From Kosmotoga olearia TBF 19.5.1 (GTDB lineage Bacteria; Thermotogota; Thermotogae; Petrotogales; Kosmotogaceae): a stretch of DNA of 64,000 nt. The first letter of the stretch is position 1; each line of letters opens with the position of its first letter. The stretch lies in assembly GCF_000023325.1 (NCBI RefSeq), contig NC_012785.1, forward strand, positions 2,046,001-2,110,000. The letters are read 5' to 3'. Below the pieces are notes generated by a model that saw only the letters and a program-made list of their open reading frames with translations, made no database searches and was not told where the DNA came from. A program made the translations under genes and the position numbers. This document shows positions 28,512 to 30,002 of this stretch, piece by piece.

Positions 28512-28842
28512 GGGAAATCACTCCTGAGACCTAATCTTCTGGATTACAAGGTAGGTATATGAGCATCATACCATTTTGTTGGATAACTTTTTGTACAACT
28601 TGTACACGTGTATATAGAATCAGAACAAAATATACAATAATACCAGCTGCTGTATTGTGCAACTATTTTATGGTTATTGTAGGGCGAGTATATAATAGCA
28701 TAGTCTGTAAAGATGGTTGTATAGGTTGTACGTTGTGGTGGGTACAATAACATATGAATTTGTGAGAACCTATGTAGCACATATAAGAAATGGTATAATA
28801 TGTACAAATATAAACAGCATAATGTGCGATGGAGGTGTAAAA
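28512..28842. other. AT-rich gap with repeated TTGTACAA-like motifs
   Basis: No gene. TTGTACAA occurs at 28591-28598, TTGTACAC at 28600-28607, TTGTAT at 28717, TTGTAC at 28726, GTACAA at 28742 and TGTACAAA at 28801-28808. Similar motifs occur on the far side of the recombinase gene (30,936-31,085). They may be operators or protein-loading sites for the module between them. Confidence 0.5.
28791..28799 (+). promoter_or_regulatory. Extended -10 promoter element
   Basis: TGGTATAAT is a perfect extended -10 box, 44 bases before the ATG of the following gene. No convincing -35 hexamer is seen at 16-18 bases, which is normal for extended -10 promoters. A TGTACAAA motif overlaps the expected start of transcription. 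Confidence 0.55.
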
Positions 28843-29760
28843 ATGGCTCGTTCCATAACAATAGTAGATATACTGAATATTTTGGGAACATTGGAAGACG
28901 AAAGCGGGACACAATCTTCCAGAAATAAGTTCCTTAACGGTTATCTGCAAAAGCTTTCGAGCATCGAAGAAGTCACTGGCGACGCTACGATGTTACTCGA
29001 TTCTCTAGATACCAGTGATGAAAAACAGGTGCTGTTGTATGAAAGAGCTTACGCGGATCTTACAAACAGACTTGCTGAAATCGCAGGATTCAAGGTTAAT
29101 TATGTAAAATACTCCAATCGTGAAAGAATAACCGGCATCTGGGAAGCTGGAAACGACTTTAAATTGAAGGTTGCGGCTTTCATTCCATTTGAGGCGTCTC
29201 AAGGGCGGGGAATTTCCAGGCATGCGCTTCTCGTGCTACCGGAACCCGTTGATTTTCAGAGACCCTTTGTGACGTTTATGAAACTTGCTGAATTTTTGAA
29301 TATGGTGGTACAGATAAACCTTCCGCTTTCCACCATTGCAGGAGTGCTGTCCATAGACGATAACTATGATAAAAAGCTAGCTCCTGTAATGGAATTGAGT
29401 ATATTAGCCTTCAAAAGTAAATTAGCGCCTTTCAAACGTACAGCAACGCTTCAAAGCGAATGGGATAAAGAGGAGATCCAGACACTTCTGAATAAACTAA
29501 AACCAGCTACAAGGGTATTTCTCACTATACTGCTGGATAAAGAATCCAACGCTTCCGAAATTTATGCTAAAATGAATCCCATTTTGACAGAAATGGGAGA
29601 ACCAGAAGTGAAAAGTCCCATGGCGGTGGGTGCAATCATGGGTGCCCTCTCAAAACATTATGCAGGCATAAAAGAACCCCTTGTTTTTAGAAAGAATCGC
29701 CGCTATTTTATCAATGAAAAGTACCGTGAGCTACTATCGGAATTGCTAAGCAGCTTGTGA
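28843..29760 (+). CDS. Unrecognised protein, possible nuclease-like N-domain plus winged helix
   Basis: A 305-residue protein not assigned to a family. ATG with GGAGG seven bases upstream. Residues about 60-125 (LYERAYADLTNRLAEIAGF, then NRERITGIWEAGNDFKLKVAAF) resemble in outline the start of restriction-like PD-(D/E)XK domains, but the acidic/lysine triad is not intact, so catalysis is doubtful. The C-terminal 90 residues (KPATRVFLTILLD ... ASEIYAKMNPIL ... MGALSKHYAGIKEPLVF) look like a winged-helix DNA-binding domain. Position next to a Xer recombinase, a dif-like site and repeated palindromes suggests a DNA-binding role. These domain readings are inference. Confidence 0.6.
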   Translation: MARSITIVDILNILGTLEDESGTQSSRNKFLNGYLQKLSSIEEVTGDATMLLDSLDTSDEKQVLLYERAYADLTNRLAEIAGFKVNYVKYSNRERITGIWEAGNDFKLKVAAFIPFEASQGRGISRHALLVLPEPVDFQRPFVTFMKLAEFLNMVVQINLPLSTIAGVLSIDDNYDKKLAPVMELSILAFKSKLAPFKRTATLQSEWDKEEIQTLLNKLKPATRVFLTILLDKESNASEIYAKMNPILTEMGEPEVKSPMAVGAIMGALSKHYAGIKEPLVFRKNRRYFINEKYRELLSELLSSL

Positions 29761-29789
29761 AGCTGTGTTTGGAGTGAAAGGTGTTAGAA

Positions 29790-29863
29790 TCGATTTTGAG
29801 GCCATTGTTTCTTAGTTGAAGAGAAATTATACGTGAATCCGAAAATAATGGCCTTAAAATCGA
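29790..29863. repeat. Inverted repeat, 17-bp arms
   Basis: Arms 29790-29806 (TCGATTTTGAGGCCATT) and 29847-29863 are complementary at 16 of 17 positions, separated by 40 bases. It lies between the end of the unknown gene and the recombinase promoter. It could fold as an mRNA hairpin or be a second recombination or protein-binding site; it has no T-tract. Confidence 0.6.
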
Positions 29864-29914
29864 ATATAAAAGGCGCCGTCTGTAAGCTTTAATACAAGCC
29901 GTGTTTAGAAACCG

Positions 29915-29942
29915 TTGTTTTGGTGATGAAATATGATACAAT
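29915..29942 (+). promoter_or_regulatory. Candidate promoter of the Xer gene
   Basis: TTGTTT (29915-29920), 16-base spacer, TACAAT (29937-29942). Transcription would start near 29949, inside the dif-like palindrome, so recombinase bound there could repress its own gene. Confidence 0.5.
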
Positions 29943-29946
29943 AAAG

Positions 29947-29974
29947 TGGAGACATAATGTATATTACGTCTCCA
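29947..29974. other. dif-like Xer recombination site
   Basis: A 28-bp site with the layout of bacterial dif: left 11-bp arm TGGAGACATAA, central TGTATA, right arm TTACGTCTCCA. The arms are inverted repeats with one mismatch. Compared with E. coli dif from memory, 17 of 28 positions agree, including an unbroken 14-base core CATAATGTATATTA. It ends 28 bases before the ATG of a tyrosine recombinase. The palindrome extends a few bases outward (AAAGTGG/CCACTTTT), so it could also act as a hairpin terminator; the exact dif core argues for the recombination site. Confidence 0.7.
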
Positions 29975-30002
29975 CTTTTGACTATTTTCAGGGGGGAACG
30001 TC

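Follow-up and report, generated by a model that had tools for sequence, protein, structure and literature searches.

A dif-like palindrome in front of the sole tyrosine recombinase gene of Kosmotoga olearia TBF 19.5.1: a probable single-recombinase Xer/dif unit

The stretch of DNA analysed here (the window, 64,000 nucleotides) comprises bases 2,046,001-2,110,000 of the single 2,302,126-bp contig of Kosmotoga olearia TBF 19.5.1. Direct reading of the window gives a 28-mer, TGGAGACATAATGTATATTACGTCTCCA, on the plus strand at 29947-29974, which is followed after 28 bases by the ATG (30003) of xer, a gene for a tyrosine recombinase of 305 amino acids; the 11-6-11 palindrome and its distance from the recombinase gene, both put forward in a preliminary description of this DNA, were confirmed. 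Between the arms of the 28-mer, 10 of 11 positions agree, and outward extension of the palindrome gives 16-nt arms (29943-29958 and 29963-29978) with 94% complementarity. The features of the locus are collected in Table 1. Further upstream, an open reading frame for 347 amino acids (28717-29760; no Pfam match) and a 27-nt inverted repeat (29784-29869; 85% complementary, 32-nt loop) were observed, the latter in the interval that separates the upstream gene from the xer promoter.

Table 1. Features of the xer locus in window positions, with the basis of each assignment.
Feature	Position	Strand	Basis
Possible weak -35 element (TTGTTT), 16 nt before the -10 element	29915..29920	+	sequence only; missed by consensus scan
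Extended -10 element TGATACAAT; predicted transcription start in left arm	29934..29942	+	TGnTATAAT-like motif in 16 aligned loci; start inferred
Extended inverted repeat, 16-nt arms, 4-nt centre	29943..29978	.	outer four pairs covary, 89% of cells paired
dif-like site, 11-6-11 (TGGAGACATAA TGTATA TTACGTCTCCA)	29947..29974	+	direct reading; unique; covarying arms in 16 family loci
Left recombinase arm TGGAGACATAA	29947..29957	+	inverted-repeat and covariation analysis
Central hexamer TGTATA, presumed strand-exchange region	29958..29963	+	dif analogy; Mesotoga G022 crossover at corresponding hexamer TTGTTA
Right recombinase arm TTACGTCTCCA	29964..29974	+	inverted-repeat and covariation analysis
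Ribosome-binding site GGGGGG	29991..29996	+	sequence; G-rich box kept in alignment
xer, 305-aa tyrosine recombinase, sole one in genome	30003..30920	+	profile searches

A search of the K. olearia genome with PF00589 returned one gene, the xer next to the site. The predicted protein matches models of the XerC/XerD type (E 1e-81 to 1e-83); the XerD and XerC models themselves score 278 and 272 bits, under their equivalog cut-offs, and the NCBIfam XerA cut-off is passed. The match to the XerS model is weak (114.6 bits; cut-off 267), and XerH from the PDB aligns over the catalytic domain only. The catalytic residues R151, K177, H247, R250, H273 and Y282 are invariant in 18 of 18 aligned Thermotogota proteins. 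In the protein tree, the Kosmotogaceae Xer groups with the other Thermotogota Xer (100/98 support), and the Thermotogota sequences are tentatively placed beside two archaeal XerA sequences, through a join that involves long branches.

The 28-mer and E. coli dif have an identical, unbroken core of 14 bases, CATAATGTATATTA; this had been stated in the preliminary description and was checked here against the E. coli sequence given in PMC3025954. Over its full length the 28-mer is identical to E. coli dif at 17 of 28 positions, a comparison that was dropped as evidence because such scores are not rare (at least 17 identities are reached at 226 positions in 1.22 Mb). For the scans and the skew analysis, K. 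olearia was sampled as 60 stretches of 20 kb, and each of two relatives as 40 stretches. Among 73 near-perfect 11-6-11 palindromes (at least 10 of 11 positions) in 1.22 Mb, the dif core was found in one, the 28-mer at the xer locus. The site thus has the 11-bp inverted arms, the 6-bp centre and the conserved inner core of dif, and it is non-coding and present once per chromosome in K. olearia; the search for further xer genes and dif copies proposed earlier gave the one PF00589 gene and, with up to three mismatches allowed over the whole genome, a single match to the 28-mer. A second exact copy of the core at 882,480 was considered as another dif and rejected, the full site there being beyond three mismatches.

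In 16/16 readable Kosmotogaceae loci, which represent five genera, the same 11-6-11 palindrome precedes the orthologous xer by 25-52 bases. The dif core (ATAA-N6-TTA) is kept in these sites, and the outer arms vary by clade (TGGAGAC, ATGAGTC, TGGCGAC, TGGACGT) yet stay symmetric. Standard pairs make up 92.9% of the pair cells, and nine of the 15 pairs have changed on both sides; covariation was counted in 34 cells against a mean of 12.9 after shuffling, with none of 500 shuffles reaching the observed level, and it was lost when the partner was slid. Canonical dif sites, which are bound by two different proteins, have less symmetric outer arms. Symmetric, covarying arms are what should be expected if one protein binds the site in two copies.

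Outside Kosmotogaceae, no adjacent site was found within 300 bases at 80 xer loci, and the orthologous xer genes examined in other Thermotogota families are without such a site in front; the linkage of site and xer is therefore, as far as sampled, a trait of Kosmotogaceae. When 18 other Thermotogota genomes were searched for the core, most of the matches were weakly symmetric, and these were judged to be chance. One sequence from another family of the same order, CCCTAACATAATAAAAATTATGTTAAGG (locus L253, G036:C1:471030, positions ~1495-1522), is symmetric at 10 of 11 positions and is a possible dif. Dif-like palindromes were also seen about 1.5 kb downstream of xer in a Tenericutes MAG (L179:4474) and in a Clostridium MAG (L220:4309), and may be chance or true dif.

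In the genome of one Mesotoga (G022), the dif next to xer lies at 271 kb, and two further sites of this kind were found at 850,558 and 853,684, 3,126 bp apart; extra copies were seen only in this genome. Both extra sites are preceded on the left by the same DNA (150 bases in a base-by-base comparison, and the same open reading frames at the same positions across 1.5 kb), and the copies diverge inside the site. The region G022:C1:847432-853711 (L262, L263, L265 and L266) holds a plasmid-like element of 3,126 bp twice in tandem, with the left junction at 847 kb. The host-element junction reads GGTAGTTCTATTTGTTATTATGAATCAT, the element-element junction ATGAGTCATAATTGTTATTATGAATCAT and the element-host junction ATGAGTCATAATTGTTATTATGAAAGCT; the central hexamer TTGTTA and the TTATGAA of one arm are common to all three, the crossover lies in or adjoins TTGTTA, and an open host reading frame is restored when the flanks are joined. 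One arm of the element site is exactly that of the Mesotoga dif and the other is one base off. The open reading frames of the element specify an HTH/excisionase-like protein and an AAA_25 RepA-like protein; an integrase was not recognisable in the sequence read (all but about 0.1 kb in the middle), and the element was not found in 16 other family genomes searched. We regard it as a candidate Xer-exploiting integrative element; G022 also has two further small tyrosine recombinases, which could have moved it. That these palindromes serve as recombination sites is supported most strongly by this crossover, from one Mesotoga genome. The K. olearia locus, in which the gene of a single Xer adjoins a symmetric site, has the layout of the single-recombinase Xer/dif class, and the earlier proposal of such a unit is supported by the sole PF00589 gene, by the family-wide linkage and by the recombined, near-identical site of Mesotoga.

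A TGnTATAAT-like extended -10 box lies 4-7 bases upstream of the site in 16/16 Kosmotogaceae loci, and since the box ends so close to the site, transcription would be expected to begin near the outer end of the left arm. The usual sigma-70 scan calls no promoter at xer, so that the suggestion of a promoter that starts transcription inside the site drew nothing from the scan and is supported by the box conserved in all loci; the xer promoter, which rests on this comparison, is a less firm assignment. With the predicted start inside the site, Xer bound there should repress xer, and from this anatomy the Kosmotogaceae Xer/dif unit probably limits its own expression.

Raw cumulative GC skew was rejected as a measure of chromosomal position, because a run of minus-strand genes to the left of the site confounds it; the skew at fourfold-degenerate sites was used instead, corrected for gene strand, and an origin-terminus axis was fitted. 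In K. olearia the best fit gave an axis of 1.03 / 2.28 Mb. From the site (2.076 Mb) the skew switch is about 0.2 Mb away (8.6% of the chromosome; bootstrap 5.4-15.3%, or 0.12-0.35 Mb, 95%), and the position facing the fitted origin about 0.1 Mb; the offset from the switch exceeds the threshold of 5% used for dif-to-skew agreement in PMC3025954. For the relatives, weak fits (R2 0.03) gave site-to-switch distances of 8% of the chromosome in K. pacifica and 3.5% in Mesotoga G022. Polar words switch at 2.19-2.26 Mb in K. olearia and add no support for 2.076 Mb. In 3/3 complete chromosomes sampled, the site is in the terminus half. Skew thus assigns the site to the terminus region without marking it out there; the skew check proposed earlier, in which the site was expected at the extremum, puts it near the terminus and away from the switch. 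The preliminary description had named as grounds against the site an extremum elsewhere with a better dif there; the extremum is indeed elsewhere, and a better dif was found neither in the scanned 53% of the K. olearia genome nor when the whole genome was searched with the core pattern. Several genomic copies of the site, another of the grounds named, were not seen either. Between 1.957 and 2.092 Mb of the genome, which includes the left half of the window, only 5-19% of the genes are on the plus strand, opposite to the expected leading strand, with the sign of the gene-corrected skew unchanged; this is perhaps a recent inversion next to dif.

Most bacteria separate fused chromosome copies with the FtsK motor. 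Searches with PF01580, the controls of which included FtsK-bearing genomes, gave no match in the K. olearia genome and nothing convincing for FtsK/SpoIIIE in 103 Thermotogota genomes (weak partial matches, two of them marginally above cut-off). The Xer system therefore works without FtsK or uses a partner that this model misses.

We conclude with high confidence that the 28-mer is the chromosomal dif of a single-recombinase, FtsK-independent Xer system, for which we infer Xer binding, dimer resolution and autoregulation. Two Xer protomers would bind the two nearly identical arms; two dif sites on a dimeric chromosome would pair, and strands would be cut and exchanged in the central hexamer to give two monomers. 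As FtsK was not found, pairing and timing must be driven otherwise, and may be driven by the recombinase alone, as for archaeal XerA in vitro, or by some other translocase. The recombinase bound at dif would also block its own promoter. A wider proposal, which we consider possible and rather doubtful, is that dimer resolution in this bacterium is FtsK-free and that the symmetric dif on which the one recombinase acts is also the operator of the recombinase gene, with dif occupancy setting the supply of recombinase and perhaps replacing the FtsK brake.

The overlap of the site with the predicted transcription start in 16/16 loci would also suit a palindrome that controls only xer, as an operator or as a hairpin of the 5' RNA, with recombination at another site; the predicted RNA fold (-17.4 kcal/mol, z = -6.2) and an outer pairing that exceeds the 11-bp dif arm point in the same direction. 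We consider this improbable, as the dif core and the 11-6-11 spacing are kept, no second dif-core palindrome was found in the 1.22 Mb scanned, and a mobile element has recombined within a near-identical site in Mesotoga G022. Moreover, the mismatched arm cells are mostly not G-U, so that a DNA site fits better than an RNA stem. Chance resemblance to dif of an intrinsic terminator has hardly any probability in our view: Kosmotoga sites do have a GC-containing stem followed by TTTT, but the U-tract is missing in Mesotoga (ATTTACAAT), the closest upstream gene ends 186 bases away, the -10 box lies upstream of the site in all loci, and the terminator scan made no call. The terminator and RNA-hairpin readings were accordingly rejected, on the dif core, the -10 box, the missing U-tract of Mesotoga and the mostly non-G-U mismatches.

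Many integrases, too, are encoded by a gene that adjoins its site, and xer might thus encode a mobile-element integrase, with the palindrome as its attachment site and no role in chromosome dimers. This is very unlikely, given that no mobile-element genes were recognised beside xer, that xer is the sole recombinase gene in K. olearia, and that each readable family member has one ortholog beside the site, in a tree that follows the Thermotogota lineage with 100/98 support.

A Xer/dif pair of Thermotogota appears not to have been described previously: Thermotogae are not among the 16 phyla of a broad dif prediction of 2011, and the open-access literature searched yielded neither Xer/dif work nor a predicted dif for Thermotogota. 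A compact unit of one protein and one site, with no FtsK, offers a test bed for the control of dimer resolution without a septal motor, and it allows a test of whether the archaeal XerA mode also operates in bacteria; small mobile elements may, in addition, use the site as a docking point, and it could serve as a tool for site-specific recombination in thermophiles.

According to PMC2958812, the archaeal XerA/dif system (Pyrococcus abyssi) likewise has one recombinase, active without FtsK in vitro, a nearly symmetric 11-6-11 site with positions in common with bacterial dif, no FtsK, and a site in the terminus region that is not exactly opposite the origin; the host here, however, is a bacterium. 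In that source, the dif of Thermococcales is not beside xerA and that of Sulfolobales is reported to be close, whereas the Kosmotogaceae site is linked to xer, and an overlap with the promoter, predicted for Kosmotogaceae, is not described in the text consulted.

Among bacteria, XerS/difSL of streptococci and lactococci (PMC5357621) also has a single recombinase, with site and gene as one module, but its site is of 31 bp with an 11-bp centre and FtsK is needed; the Kosmotogaceae unit has 28 bp, a 6-bp centre and no FtsK found, and includes neither a site of the difSL type nor an XerS protein. XerH/difH of epsilon-proteobacteria (PMC2731167) shares the single recombinase and a site that is often gene-linked, but the difH sequence differs (TTGAAAACTATAATTTTCAA), and the unit has neither a difH-type sequence nor an XerH protein. 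The likeness to XerS and XerH suggested earlier consequently holds for the linked single-recombinase layout and breaks down, for XerS, at FtsK. XerL/dif of Legionellales and LME-1 (PMC9765430) is similar in its single recombinase, in the long uninterrupted symmetric arms and in having been exposed by a mobile element with a mimic site; XerL is, unlike the protein here, a divergent recombinase, and that paper does not describe the Legionella site as lying at the xerL promoter. With XerC/XerD-dif of E. coli and most bacteria, the unit has in common the 28-bp 11-6-11 site, the 14-base core and an XerC/XerD-type protein; it differs in having one recombinase and not two, symmetric arms and a gene-linked site, and in that FtsK was not found, so that neither the recombinase pair nor the translocase of that system is represented in K. 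olearia. The Kosmotogaceae unit combines gene linkage, a single recombinase and the absence of FtsK with a canonical dif core.
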